Assembly: GCA_002877915.1 (NCBI GenBank)
Contig: PNJE01000166.1
Location: forward strand, 1 to 34,498
DNA length: 34,498 nt
Direction of reading: 5' to 3'
Source: Candidatus Aminicenantota bacterium
GTDB lineage: Bacteria; Acidobacteriota; Aminicenantia; Aminicenantales; Saccharicenantaceae
Shown here: positions 5,786-26,572 of the stretch, piece after piece
Numbering within the stretch: the stretch's first letter is position 1
Layout of the letters: every line of letters starts with the position of its first letter
Made by a program: the position numbers and the translations under genes
The notes under the pieces: model-generated
The model's database searches: none
What the model saw: only the letters and a program-made list of their open reading frames with translations
What the model was told of the DNA's origin: nothing

Positions 5786-6733
5786 ATGAAGGCTAATAAA
5801 CTTTATCAGGCGGCTGAGAAAGCTATTTTCCAATCTTTAAAGCTTAAACCAGGGGAAAGTTTCCTCCTGGTTACTGATAAGCAAAAGATGGAAATAGCCG
5901 AAGCTCTGGCTTTTTACGCTAATAAAGCTGGGGCTGAGACCACCACCTATCTGATGACTGAAACTCTAAGACCGATAACCAAACCAACCAAGCTATTCCG
6001 GTTGCTGACTGAAAAAGCTCAGGTGATCGCCTACTTGCTCGACGCCAGAATTGAAGAGAAACCTTTCCGTGGTTTCATGGTCAGTGAGGGGATGAAAAGA
6101 AGCCGCATCTGCATGATGCCCGGAATCACTAAGGACATGATGGAAAGACTGGTCAATGTTGATTTTGCCAAGATGAACGAGTTCACTAAAAAAGTCATCC
6201 GGGCACTGAAAGATGCCGACAAGGTCATCATTGAGAATCCCGATGGAACAAATATCAGTTTTAGCGTTAAAGGAAGGAAATGGCATAACGACAATGGCGA
6301 TATCAGCAAAAAAGGCAAAAGCGGCAATCTACCCGCCGGCGAAGGTTACACCTGCCCGGTGGAAGAAACCTTTACCGGTAAGCTGGTCATTAGCCTGATC
6401 GATGATAAGCTCGGTTACGGCGAAATGGAATTTAAAGAGGGCCGGCTTATTCGCTGGAAAGGAAAAGGGATTGAAGCCATCGTCAAAAATATTGGTTCGG
6501 ATGAGACTGGATTTATTATTGGCGAGTTCGGTATAGGAACTAATCCCGGGGCTCGCCTTTGTCCGAACATGCTGGAAGCAGAAAAGGCTTTTGGCACTGT
6601 CCATTTTGCTATCGGAGATTCTTATGGAATTGGCAAAAACAAGAGCCAGCACCACTATGATGCCCTGATTGATAAAGTTACCATTATTGCCAAGGGTAAA
6701 TACATAGCTAAGAATGGCCGCTTTTTAATTTAA
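5786..6733 (+). CDS. M29-like leucyl aminopeptidase (aminopeptidase T type, short form)
   Basis: This 315-residue protein resembles the COG2309 aminopeptidases. M29 enzymes use a two-metal site built from Glu, Glu, His, Tyr and an HxD pair. Candidate equivalents here are E186 (NLPAGEGYTCPVE), E247 (IIGEFGIGTNPGAR), H273 (FGTVHFAIGD) and H290-Y-D292. It is shorter than classical aminopeptidase T (about 410 residues), mostly at the N-terminal side, as in the uncharacterised short group. It probably releases N-terminal residues from peptides in the cytosol. The start has AAAGGA eight bases upstream. The OPT transporter gene ends 20 bases before it. No gene follows on this strand for at least 400 bases. 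Confidence 0.85.
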   Translation: MKANKLYQAAEKAIFQSLKLKPGESFLLVTDKQKMEIAEALAFYANKAGAETTTYLMTETLRPITKPTKLFRLLTEKAQVIAYLLDARIEEKPFRGFMVSEGMKRSRICMMPGITKDMMERLVNVDFAKMNEFTKKVIRALKDADKVIIENPDGTNISFSVKGRKWHNDNGDISKKGKSGNLPAGEGYTCPVEETFTGKLVISLIDDKLGYGEMEFKEGRLIRWKGKGIEAIVKNIGSDETGFIIGEFGIGTNPGARLCPNMLEAEKAFGTVHFAIGDSYGIGKNKSQHHYDALIDKVTIIAKGKYIAKNGRFLI

Positions 6734-7234: not shown

Positions 7235-7459
7235 ATGAAAAGAGCTATCGCTCTCACCTTGCTAACACTTATTATCCTATCATCTTTCCTGCTTATCCCG
7301 GCCGCTTCTCAGTCTACCAATCCAGCTGATTCCTGCTGGAACAACTGGGAAAGGTGCAAAGCCCGAGCCCTGGCGTCTGATATGGGAGTAATCAAGACGA
7401 CCCTGGCTTTAACGCTTTGCGACATTGCACTTGGTAATTGCTTGATGAAAGCGGTCTGA
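7235..7459 (+). CDS. Small secreted peptide with twin CX6C cysteine motif, unknown function
   Basis: The 74-residue product has a clear signal peptide: a K2-R3 start, a hydrophobic core at about 4-21, and an AAS-type cleavage region near 23-27. The mature part is about 48 residues. Its four cysteines form a symmetric pattern, C34-x6-C41 and C62-x6-C69, with 20 residues between. This spacing suggests a helical hairpin closed by two disulfides; that fold is inferred, not seen. The ribosome site GGGAGGT is strong. A hairpin right after the stop separates it from an ORF, a beta-propeller gene, a thiol-disulfide protein gene and an ABC transporter on the same strand. It could be the substrate of that system, or a structural envelope peptide. 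I do not recognise the family. Confidence 0.8.
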   Translation: MKRAIALTLLTLIILSSFLLIPAASQSTNPADSCWNNWERCKARALASDMGVIKTTLALTLCDIALGNCLMKAV

Positions 7460-7466
7460 GAAACCG

Positions 7467-7503
7467 GGGAGTTCTGGCTATTTAGCCAGGACTCCCTTCT
7501 TTC
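7467..7503 (+). terminator. Strong hairpin after the peptide gene, probable (partial) terminator
   Basis: GGGAGTTCTGGC (7467-7478) and GCCAGGACTCCC (7485-7496) form a 12-bp stem with a single G-U wobble and a 6-base loop. The tract TTCTTTC follows at 7497-7503. It starts eight bases after the peptide stop. The T tract is interrupted, so some read-through into the downstream genes is likely. Such an arrangement would give more peptide mRNA than downstream mRNA. Confidence 0.75.
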
Positions 7504-7527
7504 AAATATCGCTGGAAAGGAGATTAA

Positions 7528-7821
7528 ATGCCGAAAGCAGCCGCCTTGAGGAGCGACCTAATTTTTGTTTCAGGCTCTTTCTGGAGATGGGAAATTAAAG
7601 GCCATTTGTCCGGTCAAAAAAGGCTGCCGTTTTCTTACCAGCTTAAATTTCGGAGCAAGCCAGATGAGCCTGCTATCGCCCCCCCACAAGTAACCTTGAT
7701 AAGATTAATGTCCGCGGAACAATTAAAAATAAGAAAACCTCGAGGCGCAGCCCTCCATCTTGAGCCTGAGATTCTTAATTTTAAAAAGCAATTTAAAGGA
7801 GGTCTAAACTATGAATCGTAA
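7528..7821 (+). CDS. Orphan 97-residue basic protein, hypothetical
   Basis: A 97-codon ORF has a very good ribosome site (GAAAGGAGATTAA before the ATG). It fills the space between the hairpin and the beta-propeller gene, overlapping that gene's start by 11 bases. The product is basic, with no signal peptide or membrane segment and no motif I recognise. The C-terminal KGG is forced by the ribosome site of the next gene. In favour: the strong translation start, the position and the length. Against: no recognised family and weak protein-like character (several RxxKPR stretches, few hydrophobic repeats). It may be a small partner of the peptide system, or a decayed gene. Confidence 0.45.
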   Translation: MPKAAALRSDLIFVSGSFWRWEIKGHLSGQKRLPFSYQLKFRSKPDEPAIAPPQVTLIRLMSAEQLKIRKPRGAALHLEPEILNFKKQFKGGLNYES

Positions 7822-8785
7822 GTTTAAAGCAACTCTTTTCTTCATCCTTTTGTCGGTTTTCATTTATTCAGAGGCAGCCCAGATAAAAATTTTAGCCGTA
7901 AAGGAAATTCCTTTAAAAAATCCTGAAGCTCGTCCATTCTTTTTTAAGCCAACAGTTATCATTTCTGCTCATCAAGACCTGTTCATTGCTGAATCCGGTG
8001 ATAATAGAATTCGGGTTTACGATAGCCAGGGTGAGCCAAAATATACCATCGGGAAAAAAGGCCAGGGACCGAATGAGTTTGATAATTTAATCGGTCTGGA
8101 TATCCTTGGGGACCGCATTTACGCCGCTGATTCTTTCAATAACATGATAAAAATATTCAGCCAGGATGGTAAATATCTGGGTGGCTTTAAAACCCCCTTT
8201 AAACCTATTTATGTGGCCGTTTTAAGCCAGGATAAAATCCTGGTTACCAACCGACCTTTGCCTTTGAAACCTGAGAAAATGGTTTTTTGCTTTAATTCCA
8301 GAGGTGAGCTCCAATGGAAAGCAATTGATCCGGTTCCGGCCAAAGATCAAATTTTTTACACTCTAATCAACGAGATCATGCTGAAAAAAGACGAGGTTGG
8401 CCATGCTTATATAATCTGGAAGTACCAAAATAAATATATTCTGAAAATAGATGGCCACGGCCAGGTGATTGAAAAAATAGGACTTGACCAGAACTATCCG
8501 GTTAAATCAATCAATCTGCCGCTTAAAGAAGAAAAGAAAATTATAACCTCTGTCTGCTGGAACTGGGCTCTTTCTGATAACAAATTTTACCTTATTCCAC
8601 CTGTCTATACCGAGGATGGAGATATAGGACCGGGGAAAGACATCATGGTAATAAATGATAGAGGAAGCATTTCTGCTTTTATCAAGTTGCCTCAGGCTCT
8701 GCGGCTGCTAACTGTAAATAAAAATATTATTTATGGTATCGACACAGACGATGAGCTCCACATTTATCAACTGGAGGATAAATGA
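7811..8785 (+). CDS. Secreted 6-bladed beta-propeller protein (NHL-like)
   Basis: The 324-residue protein begins with a signal peptide (about residues 1-22, ending SEAAQ). Propeller repeats follow: DLFIAESGDNRIRVYDSQG, then RIYAADSFNNMIKIFSQDGK, then weaker blades with KILVTN and KFYLI strands. This is the pattern of the NHL-type or 6-bladed beta-propeller proteins frequent in Bacteroidota and Acidobacteriota-like lineages. In Bacteroidota such proteins often stand next to small secreted peptides (for example the NVEALA group). No catalytic residues are evident; binding of a peptide or glycan ligand is the usual guess. The ribosome site is AAAGGAGGT. The stop overlaps the next start (ATGA), so it is translated together with the thiol protein. 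Confidence 0.85.
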   Translation: MNRKFKATLFFILLSVFIYSEAAQIKILAVKEIPLKNPEARPFFFKPTVIISAHQDLFIAESGDNRIRVYDSQGEPKYTIGKKGQGPNEFDNLIGLDILGDRIYAADSFNNMIKIFSQDGKYLGGFKTPFKPIYVAVLSQDKILVTNRPLPLKPEKMVFCFNSRGELQWKAIDPVPAKDQIFYTLINEIMLKKDEVGHAYIIWKYQNKYILKIDGHGQVIEKIGLDQNYPVKSINLPLKEEKKIITSVCWNWALSDNKFYLIPPVYTEDGDIGPGKDIMVINDRGSISAFIKLPQALRLLTVNKNIIYGIDTDDELHIYQLEDK

Positions 8786-9240
8786 AAAAGATATTTTTTA
8801 TATTTAGGAAATTAATTTTCGCCCTGATGATTATCTGGCCCGGCCTCTCACCAGCCATTTTCTCAGCCCAGGCCCTGACCTTTGATCAGACAGCTCTCAA
8901 TTCAATCCAAAAGGTTCCGGTCAAAATATATTCATCCCTGGAGGAAATTACCAGAGGCTCGGGCCAGTCGGTTTTGCTGGTTTTTTTCTCTCTGAGCTGC
9001 CAGGTCTGCTGGGATGAATTATTTGAAATGAAAGAATTTATTGAAAAATTCAGCCTGCCTGTGATAATAATTGGCGTATCGGCAGATGAGAGAGAAGAAC
9101 TTCAGGCCTTTGCGTCCAGATATTCATTCCCTTACCCTATCCTCCAGGACAAGGATAAAAAGCTTTATCGCCAATTCAGGGTCCGGCTCGCGCCCTTGAT
9201 TATCAAACCAGGAGAGATAAAGCTAAGCAATGTTTATTGA
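8782..9240 (+). CDS. Exported TlpA/AhpC-like thiol-disulfide protein with CQVC site
   Basis: This 152-residue protein has an N-terminal membrane or signal segment (about 8-31) and then a thioredoxin-fold domain. VLLVFFSLSCQVCWDEL carries the CxxC pair C73/C76. IIGVSADEREELQAFASRY and FPYPILQDKDKKLYRQF match the TlpA/redoxin core. P138 (RLAPLI) fits the cis-proline before the last strand. The usual WCxPC context is replaced by SCQVC. The domain stops soon after the cis-proline strand, so it is slightly shorter than typical TlpA. It probably reduces or isomerises disulfides outside the cytoplasm. The four-cysteine peptide encoded upstream is an obvious candidate client, but this is inference. 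Its stop overlaps the permease start by 11 bases. Confidence 0.8.
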   Translation: MKKIFFIFRKLIFALMIIWPGLSPAIFSAQALTFDQTALNSIQKVPVKIYSSLEEITRGSGQSVLLVFFSLSCQVCWDELFEMKEFIEKFSLPVIIIGVSADEREELQAFASRYSFPYPILQDKDKKLYRQFRVRLAPLIIKPGEIKLSNVY

Positions 9241-9964
9241 ATCTCAGTTCCAAATGAATTTCTTTTTAGTTAAGAAAAAATTATTAAGGAGCAAAAATGC
9301 TCTTTTTATAAGCGCCTTGCCCTTAGTGGCGGTTCTTTATGTCCTCCTGGCTGACTCTCTGAATACTGCCTTAAAGTTTTTTCTTTTTCTCTTCCCCTAC
9401 CTTTTTCTGTTTTTCTCTGGCGATATGATGAAAGATGAAATTGATAGCGGAATTCTGGAAAATGTCATTTTTCTGGAGGATCGGTATCGCCATTACCTTT
9501 TCCAAAAAAATTTTATTCTGTTTGTCCTGGCCTTTTTATTTTCCGCCTCGATTTTTTTCTCCCTGACTATAGCCAGCCTATTACCGGGAACGTTCAAATG
9601 GTTCTATCTCTTCCAGTTTTTGGCCGGAACAATAATCGGAGCTTACTATATCGCCCTCAGCGGGTGGTTGAGCTTTTATTTTCGAGGAGGTGCAAATATA
9701 ATCATTGTAATCGTAGGACAGATCACCGCCATCGTATCCTTATTCTTCTCAATGCAGGAGAGAACTGGCTTTTTATATTATTTAGAAAAAGGAGAATTTC
9801 CCAACCTGATAGCTAAAATCAAATTGAGCCTTTTGGTTCTGATTATTCCCAATTTTTTAATTACCAAAAATTTATCAAGTTATCTATTTCTGGCGATTCT
9901 GGGAGCTGGTTTATTCTTATTCCTCCAGTGGCATACAATTAAAAACCTGGAGTTAAAAAAATAA
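9230..9964 (+). CDS. ABC-2 type permease subunit
   Basis: The 244-residue product has about six hydrophobic helices (roughly 26-44, 47-65, 88-112, 120-145, 150-172, 185-240 with a break). A cytoplasmic N-terminus (FLLVKKKLLRSK-like, about 9-24) and the phrase DEIDSGILENVIFLEDRYRHYLFQKN between helices 2 and 3 are typical of ABC-2 exporters of the NatB/bacteriocin-immunity kind. It starts within the thiol-protein gene; an alternative ATG at 9254 would remove the overlap. The ATPase gene follows with a one-base overlap (TAATG), so the two subunits are almost certainly partners. The direction of transport is expected to be outward; the substrate is unknown. Confidence 0.82.
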   Translation: MFIESQFQMNFFLVKKKLLRSKNALFISALPLVAVLYVLLADSLNTALKFFLFLFPYLFLFFSGDMMKDEIDSGILENVIFLEDRYRHYLFQKNFILFVLAFLFSASIFFSLTIASLLPGTFKWFYLFQFLAGTIIGAYYIALSGWLSFYFRGGANIIIVIVGQITAIVSLFFSMQERTGFLYYLEKGEFPNLIAKIKLSLLVLIIPNFLITKNLSSYLFLAILGAGLFLFLQWHTIKNLELKK

Positions 9965-10671
9965 TGGGTGAAAATCTTATCGAGTCATTCAATCTGTCTA
10001 AAAATTACGGACAAATCCAGGCCCTCAAAGAGGTCTGCTTTTCCATTAAAAAGGGAACTATTACTGCCTTTCTGGGAGAAAACGGAGCCGGCAAAACAAC
10101 TACGATAAAAATTATTCTTGGCTTCTTGAAGCCAGATTCCGGAATAGTGAAAAAAGGAAACGCTCGAATCGGTTATGTACCTGACCGTCCCCTTTTTTTC
10201 CCCTGGGCTACAGGAGAAGAGATTCTCGAAGTTACGGCCAAGCTTTTTAGAATTGATCTTTTCAGATTGCCGGGTTTAATAGAAAATACCAGTGCCCGTA
10301 TTGGATTTGATCAAGCTCTTCTGAATAGAAAAGCTCAGACTTATTCCATGGGGAACCAGAAAAAGATGTCTTACCTGCAAAATCTCCTCATCAAGCCGGA
10401 ACTTTTAGTTGTGGATGAACCTTTCACCGGTCTTGATCCCATCTCAATCAGACTGGTCCGGGACCTTTTCTTAGAGCTAAAAAAAGAAGGAAAGACCATC
10501 TTTCTGAGTTCGCATTTAATATCCGAGCTGGAAAAAATCTGTGAGGAAGTAATAATTATAAGAAAAGGACAGGTTCTCCTTGAAGATAATCTGAAGAAGA
10601 TAAGACAAACCACCAATTCCGACCTGGAAACTATATTTCTATCACTTCACCAGAAGTTACTAACCGGATGA
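9964..10671 (+). CDS. ABC transporter ATP-binding protein
   Basis: The 235-residue ATPase shows the full set of nucleotide-binding motifs. Walker A is GENGAGKTT (38-46), the signature region is YSMGNQKKM (127-135), Walker B is LLVVDEP (147-153) followed by the TGLDP D-loop region, and the H-loop is H184 (LSSHLISELE). The signature departs from LSGGQ towards the S-x-G-x-x-x-K type of CcmA/NatA-like exporters. The short Walker A to Q-loop region (IGYVPDRPLFFPWATGEE) is also CcmA-like. It pairs with the ABC-2 permease just upstream. It is the last intact gene of the peptide/propeller/thiol/ABC run. Confidence 0.93.
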   Translation: MGENLIESFNLSKNYGQIQALKEVCFSIKKGTITAFLGENGAGKTTTIKIILGFLKPDSGIVKKGNARIGYVPDRPLFFPWATGEEILEVTAKLFRIDLFRLPGLIENTSARIGFDQALLNRKAQTYSMGNQKKMSYLQNLLIKPELLVVDEPFTGLDPISIRLVRDLFLELKKEGKTIFLSSHLISELEKICEEVIIIRKGQVLLEDNLKKIRQTTNSDLETIFLSLHQKLLTG

Positions 10672-10774: not shown

Positions 10775-11054
10775 ATTATAATTTGTTTTTAGAGATCTGA
10801 TCAATTCAAGATTTCTCAACTGCCCCGGGGAATTTAATAAACCAGATTTTCCTCCACCCGGCCGACCATTGAGCAAGTAATTTTATCCATTTGGCCGCTT
10901 GAGACGGCAACCAAAATCACTATCATCCATGGCAATTTTCCTCTGAAAATCAAAAAACTTTTTGCCTCCCCCTCCAGATTATTTTAAAATTAAATTGATC
11001 GATGGTTACCATAAACAGCTGGTTAAAACCCCATTGATTTTAATAGGAGGGTTA
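10775..11054. other. Spacer without recognisable gene
   Basis: About 280 bases with several stops in all plus-strand frames up to 10946. From 10947 a frame is open into the next gene, but it has only a TTG start (10962) and no ribosome site. I see no promoter or convincing hairpin here. Confidence 0.4.
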
Positions 11055-11438
11055 ATGGCTGATTTCGAGCTGAAGCAACTTCTTCCCCTTTATGGTGAAA
11101 TTGGCATCTTGAAATACGGAGGAACGCTGAACTTTAATCGGCTGGAAAAGTTAATGGAACCGGTTCGCCTTGGACAGGAAGAGTTTACCTTAAAACATCT
11201 GGAGATTCTTACCCAGGACCCCCTTTCCCCAGCCTGGTGGAAACTTCCAGAATTGAATCAAGCAGAAATCGAACCTTTAAAATGGGCTTTCAAATTTCTT
11301 CAGCCGCGAGAAGAAACGGTCATTCAAAAAGCCTTTGCCTTGTTTAAAAATATTGAGGTCCTCTCCTGTTTGTTAAGAGTAATTTGTCCGAGATATTACG
11401 GCATTTACAGTGCTCCGGTGGAAATCTCTTATCTATAA
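11055..11438 (+). CDS. Hypothetical protein, N-terminal part of a probable frameshifted gene
   Basis: ATG 11055 follows a strong AGGAGGG site and opens a 127-residue frame; an upstream TTG at 10962 is in frame but has no ribosome site. The product is soluble, with ELKQLLPLYGEIGILKYGG and a helical second half (IEPLKWAFKFLQPREETV). It ends at 11438 inside the next frame, which overlaps it by 55 bases in the -1 phase and has only a TTG start without a ribosome site. The simplest reading is one gene of about 340 residues broken by a single-base shift between 11357 and 11436. I do not recognise this part. Confidence 0.55.
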   Translation: MADFELKQLLPLYGEIGILKYGGTLNFNRLEKLMEPVRLGQEEFTLKHLEILTQDPLSPAWWKLPELNQAEIEPLKWAFKFLQPREETVIQKAFALFKNIEVLSCLLRVICPRYYGIYSAPVEISYL

Positions 11439-12037
11439 AAGCTGAAACTCCGATAAAAAAATACCTTGAATATCTTGATAACCTGACCGAGCTTCAGGAA
11501 ATCTATGCCTTTGACCGAATCGCTGATGTGGATATGGCTCTATGGACCCTGGCCTGCCTGTTAAATGAAGAATATTTATGGAAAAAGCCGGAATATTATC
11601 AAATCATCGATAGTTATATAAATCAATCTAATCCTGTAAAAAAAATCTCTGCCCGCAATGCTCTCCGGGACATTCGGAAGACAAATTTAATTTACCTTGA
11701 TTTGTCTGAATGCTTTATCGATACCGACCCAGAAATTGCCGGTATTTTGGCTGGCAAAGAGCTGGAATGCCTGATTGACCGGCTTTTTATCAAGGTCCAG
11801 AGTGGGCCTAAAATCTATCTCCCGGTAAAAATGCCAGAAAAGCTGGCTGAGTTGGTCAGGAAAAAAGTCTTGACCGATCAGCTAAAGGATGAAATTGGCA
11901 GTTTCTGGGAAACGAGAAATAGCGCTGTCCACTGGGACCTATCGTCGGCTAATGATTGGAAACTTAAAGATTTGAAGAAAAGAGTTGGCGAGATGATTAC
12001 CGGAATCCGGAAATTGAAAGAAAGATTCGGAAGCTGA
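11384..12037 (+). CDS. HEPN-like domain protein, C-terminal part of a probable frameshifted gene
   Basis: This frame gives up to 217 residues, mostly helical. The C-terminal region (about 115-215) looks like a HEPN domain. A helix KELECLIDRLFIK is followed by LAELVRKKVLTDQLKDEIGSFWETRNSAVHW, in which R178-N179-x3-H183 is the RNxxxH motif used by HEPN ribonucleases and their inactive relatives. No recognised nucleotidyltransferase or other partner gene is next to it. The start is uncertain: TTG 11384 has no ribosome site, and the frame most likely continues the 11055 ORF through a frameshift. An RNase or RNA-binding function is inference from the motif alone. Confidence 0.6.
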   Translation: MSEILRHLQCSGGNLLSIKAETPIKKYLEYLDNLTELQEIYAFDRIADVDMALWTLACLLNEEYLWKKPEYYQIIDSYINQSNPVKKISARNALRDIRKTNLIYLDLSECFIDTDPEIAGILAGKELECLIDRLFIKVQSGPKIYLPVKMPEKLAELVRKKVLTDQLKDEIGSFWETRNSAVHWDLSSANDWKLKDLKKRVGEMITGIRKLKERFGS

Positions 12038-13416: not shown

Positions 13417-14115
13417 TTAGCTACCTAAATTATTCTTTCTTTTTTCAGCTAACAAAGCCTCTTCCAGTTCCTCGGGATGGTGGCGGCAATGATACTCAAT
13501 TTTGCTGGCTGACCGATGAGCTTTATAATAAGGCCAGCCTTGTTCCATCAGGTGCCTCTCGTGCAATTCATGAAGAAGAACAAACTTCATCTCTTTTCGG
13601 CTGAGGTCATCATCAAGCCAGACCTCATTTTCTGGAATAAAATGATAAACTTTATCATGCCCGCCCTCAGTAAAATCTATGAAAAAAAGGCTTCTAACGA
13701 GCTCCCCGCGGACTATCCAGACTTTAACTCGGCCACTATATTTTTTTATTAATTTCTCATGAATTTCATCAATTACGCCTTTTTTCTTCAGAGCTTCCAT
13801 TCGTCGGATTAATTCGGCCTTGCGCCTCTCTCTTTCTTCAACGGCATCAGCCTCAGTAAGAGCTTTATCATAAGGCAGACCAGAAGCCATCAACCGATAT
13901 TCGACCAGTAAATGATCAATGAAAAATTGCTGCTCGCCAGCGCCATGTTCCTGATCTATCCAGAATTCATGCTTTGGAATGAAGCGGAATCTGTAGTGCT
14001 GGCCAAAATTAGTAAATTCTTCATCTATATTTTTTCGGACATAATTACCATCAACAATCCAAACAGTAATATCCTCAATCTGGTCGAGTTTTTTCACATA
14101 AGGCTTTTTTAACAT
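13417..14115 (-). CDS. Uncharacterised protein with two tandem copies of one domain
   Basis: The 232-residue product is an internal duplication. Residues 18-93 and 132-207 align end to end: VWIVDGNYVR/VWIVRGELVR, FRFIPKHEFWID/YHFIPENEVWLD, then RLMASGLPYDKALTEADAVE/HLMEQGWPYYKAHRSASKIE. A basic helical linker (94-131) separates them. The second copy has H182-E-L-H-E186 at the centre of a helix; the first keeps only H68 and E72 of that set. The HxxxE or HExHE arrangement recalls a metal-binding helix but is not the classical HExxH. There is no signal peptide. The ribosome site is AAGGAGAG. It may be co-transcribed with the large gene upstream on the minus strand. Function unknown. Confidence 0.75.
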   Translation of the reverse strand: MLKKPYVKKLDQIEDITVWIVDGNYVRKNIDEEFTNFGQHYRFRFIPKHEFWIDQEHGAGEQQFFIDHLLVEYRLMASGLPYDKALTEADAVEERERRKAELIRRMEALKKKGVIDEIHEKLIKKYSGRVKVWIVRGELVRSLFFIDFTEGGHDKVYHFIPENEVWLDDDLSRKEMKFVLLHELHERHLMEQGWPYYKAHRSASKIEYHCRHHPEELEEALLAEKRKNNLGS

Positions 14116-25230: not shown

Positions 25231-26572
25231 ATGATTAAAGCTAAGCTGGGCACTTTTGATGTGACTATGATCGTCGTAAGTCTGGTCATTGGCATTGGCA
25301 TCTTCCGGACACCAGCTATGGTAGCATCGGTCGCCAGAACTCCCCTTCTTTTTTTCACTGCCTGGGGAGCAGGAGGCTTGATAACCCTTTTTGGTGCTTT
25401 GACCTTTGCGGAAATAGGGGCCCGATTCTCCGAGCCCGGCTCCTATTATAAAGTAGTGGCCTCCAGCTATGGTTCACTCCTGGCTTTTTTGCTCAACTGG
25501 GCTAACATTTTCATAATTAATACAGCCAGCGGAGCCGGCGTCGCCCTGATAGGAGCCGAATATATTTCGCCCGTAATCCTACCACCCCAGGCTCGAACTT
25601 CCCAGAATACTCTTTTTATCGCCCTTTTAATGGTGGCTGTCCTCCTGGTTTTAAATTATCTTGGCATAAAATCTGGTGCCTGGACTCAGAATATTCTGAG
25701 CCTGTCGAAAATTATATTGATCATTTTTCTGGCTACGGCAGCTCTTCTGAGTGCCAGGACCAATCCCTCTGTCCTGGCAGATTCTCTTCCCCTGCAGAAT
25801 TCATGGTGGGCTGCTCTTGGTCTTGGATTTATTTCGGTTTTTTTCAGCTATGGCGGTTATCAACAGACTATCAACCTTGGGGCCGATATAAAGGAATCGC
25901 CCAAAAAAATGCCCTTAGCCATTATCTCAGGTATGCTCATAGTCATCAGTTGTTATCTTTTAATTAACCTGGCTTACTGGAAAACCCTCGGACTTTCAGG
26001 CATGGCTTCTTCTAAACTCGTGGCTGCTGAAACAGCTGGAGTAATTTTTGGTCCCCTCGGCGACAACCTGGTTTCCATAGCCATTTTCCTTTCGGCCTTA
26101 GGATTTCTCAACAGGATTTCTCAACGCTATTCTGATGCAGCTTCCCCGCACCTATTTAGCGATGGCTGAGGACCGGACCCTGCCGGCTATCTTCAAGAAA
26201 ATAAATCCCCGGACTCAAGTTCAAGAATTTGGCTTACTTTTCCTGGGAGCTTTCATTTTGTTAAGCCTCGTTTTCCTCCGGACCTTCGAAAATATCGTCA
26301 ACTACGTTATGTTTTTAGATAGCTTGGGTATTGCCGTCGTGGCTTCCACTATTTTCATCTTGAGGCGGCCAGCCCGAAAGAGCGAGTCATCCTATAAGGG
26401 ATTTAAGATTCCTCTTTACCCATTCCTGCCTGCGGTTTTTATATTTTTTCTGCTCAGCGTTACCATAAGCGTGCTTTTATCTCAACCGAGGCAAGCGCTC
26501 CTCGGGTCAATTTTTCTCCTCCTGGGTTTCCCTCTTTATTTTTTCCTGCGCCGATTGACAGTCGTTCGGTAA
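25231..26572 (+). pseudogene. APC-superfamily amino acid permease broken by a 13-bp duplication
   Basis: Two frames together encode one APC-type permease. The first (25231-26169) has VVSLVIGIGIFRTPAMVASV, AEIGARFSEPGSYY, LNWANIFIINTASGAG and FFSYGGYQQTINLGADIKES, covering about eight helices. The second (from about 26127 to 26572) continues with LPRTYLAMAEDRTLPAIFKK and the last helices. The break is at an exact tandem copy of AGGATTTCTCAAC (26100-26125). Removing one copy gives LGFLNAILMQLPRTYLAMAED and a 442-residue protein of normal family length. As it stands, translation stops at 26169 after a short altered tail. The break may be a recent mutation, phase variation or an assembly error. 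Confidence 0.88.
26100..26125 (+). repeat. Exact 13-bp tandem duplication inside the permease gene
   Basis: AGGATTTCTCAAC occurs at 26100-26112 and again at 26113-26125. Thirteen is not a multiple of three, so the second copy shifts the frame. It lies at the junction of the two permease frames. Confidence 0.95.

Follow-up and report, generated by a model that had tools for sequence, protein, structure and literature searches.

The window analysed here is the whole stretch of 34,498 nucleotides from Candidatus Aminicenantota bacterium, and two overlapping open reading frames on its forward strand are the subject of this report. One of them runs from an ATG at 11055 to 11438 and the other from a TTG at 11384 to 12037, with 55 bases in common. 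The first frame was listed as opening at a TTG at 10962; the ATG at 11055 is the start position in nearly all of the relatives, and a Shine-Dalgarno-like AGGAGGG is found before it at 11045–11051. No ribosome site comparable to this one precedes the TTG at 11384, and the second frame is free of stop codons from 11357 onward. Close to its end, at 11915–11932, the second frame encodes R-N-S-A-V-H. The original prediction had described a split HEPN-like gene at this locus, and its account of the overlap, of the strong ribosome site before the first frame only and of an RNxxxH motif near the end of the second was borne out in each of these respects.

The two frames are the halves of one gene of 327 residues. 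A search for full-length homologues, as had been proposed, returned single genes and not pairs. Intact orthologues of 327–329 residues, with 60–63% identity and a single open frame, were detected in ten same-genus genomes (Candidatus Saccharicenans-type) and in the bin G042, and intact copies stand in records named Ca. Saccharicenans and Aminicenantes. An eleventh copy from the same genus (G016) runs past the edge of its contig, a decayed remnant with stop codons occupies the syntenic site in G003, and no match was obtained in six of the 18 same-genus relatives. Once joined, both halves aligned end to end with the single-frame proteins with E-values of about 1e-122 to 1e-137. Codon constraint was measured by the differences from the intact orthologues at each codon position, and divergence at position 3 was approximately 1.7–3.0-fold above that at positions 1 and 2 in both halves, the same ratio as among the intact orthologues themselves. 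A chance pairing of the two frames is excluded by these alignments together with the excess of third-position divergence in both halves. When the contigs were scanned, a single-protein query detected nothing and an alignment query recovered 14 loci. The bin G042 (L025 / L056, G042:C59) is assigned to another family of the same order and its record is named Clostridiales bacterium A05DMB-I-28; its gene has the same neighbours as in Ca. Saccharicenans, which points to either a contaminating contig or a transfer.

The site of the break was located with six orthologues. In all six cases the alignment with the first frame stopped at base 11423 and that with the second frame resumed at the same base, so the sequence of the window is one base short at this point; the DNA at the join also has one base fewer than eleven orthologous copies. 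The single-base shift that had been predicted between 11357 and 11436 was thus narrowed to 11423. The break (11420–11426) separates an N-terminal coding part for residues 1–123 of the family protein (11055–11423, in a frame that ends with the stop at 11438) from a C-terminal part for residues 124–327 and the stop codon (11423–12037, listed as the frame from the TTG at 11384). Broken about one third of the way in, the gene as written in the assembly would yield two non-functional pieces.

Since codon constraint in both halves is as between intact orthologues, the break is recent or an error, that is, either a very recent mutation or a fault of the assembly. The background of such breaks was estimated in 20 contig stretches and the window, where approximately 40 comparable genes elsewhere in the assembly gave one other break. 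At L094 (G000:C6), an orthologue of 262 residues from G010 aligned with positions 5871–6652 in two frames joining around 6263–6293, which marks a frame break there. The window also contains, at 25231–26572, an amino-acid permease (AA_permease_2 in its first part) that is split into frames 25231–26169 and 26135–26572, with an overlap of 35 bases.

An assembly or sequencing error in a gene that is intact in the organism has about an even chance of being the cause. The damage consists of a lone one-base difference inside a short run of A, coding constraint is kept, and assembly errors are plausible given the further frame break and the split permease, although a run of just three to four A is atypical for a homopolymer error. 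A genuine young pseudogene, in which the shift is real and the gene is being lost, is a serious possibility that falls a little short of even. True gene loss does occur in the genus, as the remnant in G003 at the same site demonstrates, and one third of the same-genus relatives (6/18) are without a match; on the other side stand the absence of a second lesion in approximately 980 bases, the constraint intact in both halves and the same signs of assembly errors. It is very improbable that the locus encodes two products, either from separate genes or through a programmed frameshift, as only the geometry of the overlap speaks for it, whereas every intact relative is a single frame without a shift, the cut lies within the conserved N-terminal domain, no canonical slippery heptamer is present and the TTG has no ribosome site.

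Structure modelling confirmed the HEPN assignment of the original prediction for the C-terminal 120 residues (11675–12034), which have a predicted HEPN fold with an intact Rx4H site. When these last 120 residues were folded with 13 relatives, a helical bundle of the HEPN type was obtained (pLDDT 86.3, pTM 0.79). The 27 best Foldseek matches of this model in the PDB were all HEPN or HEPN-containing proteins, among them MntA-HepT, SO_3166, YutE, 1wwp (TM 0.64), 4nqf, 1ufb, 2hsb and Csm6, with weak E-values (best 0.1). The entries 1ufb and 1jog are HEPN proteins. The model of a full-length orthologue was all helical (pLDDT 86), and its PDB matches were also headed by HEPN proteins. Since the Foldseek E-values are weak, the case for HEPN relies on the uniformity of the match list, the position of the motif, the conservation of the E, R, N and H residues, the weak profile matches of family members and one match above the DUF4145 cut-off.

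The motif R-N-S-A-V-H, followed by W, lies where the penultimate helix ends: R81, N82 and H86 of the model close helix 68–86, ahead of the last helix at 94–118. A Glu codon at 11765–11767 (residue 238) is invariant in the family and falls in model helix 19–41, which is helix 1 or 2 depending on whether a short helix at 7–14 is counted. Among the 20 aligned family members covering these positions, E, R and N were invariant and H was present in 19. The HEPN motif has been described as Rx4-6H with a polar residue after the R, located where helix 3 ends (PMC3710099), and the motif found here fits this description in both sequence and place. Many HEPN families have a conserved acidic residue in helix 2. 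A distant member found beside Mrr and HNH genes, L016 (G041:C220), has RNKIVP at this place, with Pro replacing the motif His, and is possibly an inactive copy.

In profile searches, DUF4145, a family that belongs to HEPN (PMC3710099), matched the window protein with 15.1 bits against a cut-off of 23.1 bits, and no single profile reached significance for the window protein itself. A distant relative in G002 passed this Pfam cut-off of 23.1 bits with 24.4 bits, and weak matches were obtained among the members for DUF4145 (nine), HEPN_Apea (four), HEPN (two), HepT (one) and CARF_HEPN (two, best 5e-5). A sequence search against the PDB gave chance matches only, and nothing significant was detected in a viral fold library.

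The first 205 residues or so form a helical domain in which conservation across the family is highest. Its core reads FK..E..S..LR...P.HYxIYSxP and is followed by a VDM motif, and its invariant residues include R38, S104, R108, Y115, S119, Y140 and D160 (L002 numbering). No model in Pfam, NCBIfam, PHROGs or PADLOC describes this domain.

The gene is surrounded in the window by beta-propeller, redoxin, ABC and CN_hydrolase genes. Most of the genomes of the genus carry it at a fixed site downstream of three genes, which encode a small secreted protein containing Cys, a beta-propeller and a redoxin, and in many of them a gene for an M14 peptidase comes next downstream. Genes for a small secreted Cys-containing protein, a beta-propeller (DUF5128) and a redoxin (AhpC-TSA) are found in a row at 7235–9240 of the window, and many genomes of the genus preserve this trio. 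A cluster of HsdM, Fic and Methylase_S genes lies directly downstream of the gene in G004, G009, G014 and G042. The genus orthologues adjoin genes for metabolic and secreted proteins, and this setting is not a clear defence island. The placement next to a peptide/ABC locus, to which the original prediction had drawn attention, has no evident meaning because only G003, of the orthologous loci examined, has the same ABC pair; a functional link to the ABC/peptide genes (9230–10671) was therefore rejected. The lack of a nucleotidyltransferase partner, also predicted, held: none is found nearby, and the genome contains a single NTP_transf_2 match, located on a different contig (G000:C70). Another gene of the window, at 13417–14115 on the reverse strand, encodes a protein of 232 residues with no Pfam match at E 0.01 and no counterpart in the related loci examined.

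Distant members of the family were identified at twelve loci, in G010, G003, G041, G002, G446, G434, G459, G220 and four genomes of another class. Defence genes lie beside six of the twelve, a raw count without a random-gene control. These neighbours were PDC-M57A/DUF6884 in G010, Mrr and DUF499/HmaC with a UvrD-type helicase in G003, Mrr/PDC-S02 and HNH in G041, HmaC with HmaB-like and GmrSD genes in G446, HmaC with an HmaB-like gene in G002, and WYL-BrxA-BrxB-BrxC in G178. The member in G316, on a short contig, has a WYL regulator only, and a defence neighbour was not evident at the remaining five of the twelve loci, most of which were judged by eye. A 2026 census describes HEPN genes that stand alone next to BREX and DUF499 systems as backup suicide effectors (PMC12839542). 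For DUF6884, the titles and abstracts retrieved in a literature search contained no mention of defence. Homologues were absent from viral contigs, and tblastn found none in plasmids (two distant members as queries) or phages (one distant member).

Two further copies were damaged. The distant member at L019 / L034 (G003:C30), which is part of a DUF499/Mrr island, has an in-frame TAG. Another member is represented by a C-terminal fragment beside DUF499 at L129 (G002:C4). Judging from these two cases, the family is often broken.

Several known systems resemble this protein in part. Members of the HEPN superfamily (DUF4145, DUF86/HepT, HEPN, HEPN_Apea) share the bundle fold and the Rx4H motif with N after the R at the end of the penultimate helix, whereas the window family adds an N-terminal helical domain of approximately 205 residues that has a conserved core of its own. 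The toxin of the MntA-HepT (type VII) toxin-antitoxin system is alike in fold and motif, but the window gene has no adjacent nucleotidyltransferase gene. Several distant members lie near BREX and DUF499-centred (Hma) loci, the systems whose auxiliary HEPN effectors have been described (PMC12839542), while neither BREX nor Hma genes adjoin the gene of the window. PADLOC CARF_HEPN and Cas13-ApeA matched weakly in two members and one member, respectively, but no match was full-length; a CARF Rossmann domain is not predicted, since the model contains no beta strands.

Taken together, the gene quite probably encodes a solitary, two-domain, defence-type HEPN endoribonuclease of 327 residues that is damaged in this assembly; the RNase activity and the role in defence are inferred. 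HEPN enzymes that have been studied offer an analogy, according to which the protein most likely forms dimers and the RN...H residues would form a metal-independent RNase site. The N-terminal domain of approximately 205 residues probably recognises a trigger or a partner; it may sense stress or infection, upon which RNA would be cut and growth or phage multiplication halted, and a nucleotidyltransferase partner would not be needed for this.

A HEPN-fold protein with a non-nuclease binding or regulatory role, acting as a chromosomally fixed housekeeping factor, is an unlikely alternative. The stable syntenic position beside metabolic genes in many genomes of the genus is consistent with such a role, and so is the Pro of L016. 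However, all of the orthologues and nearly all of the distant members retain R, N, H and E, while loss of the motif is reported to be usual in HEPN domains that serve as fused substrate-binding modules (PMC3710099).

The preferred reading, a solitary HEPN endoribonuclease, can be extended tentatively to the family, although the wider proposal is held at somewhat below even. The members may constitute an uncurated Acidobacteriota family of two-domain HEPN ribonucleases with their own N-terminal sensing domain, serving as an auxiliary effector beside BREX, DUF499/Hma, Mrr and GmrSD-type loci, with one branch that would have come to occupy constant chromosomal positions in Ca. Saccharicenans. An annotation based on this assembly would show two short hypothetical proteins instead of one enzyme. 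The finding would add a family to the solitary HEPN nucleases that are associated with defence of the restriction type, and the invariant residues of its N-terminal domain mark a candidate trigger-sensor site.
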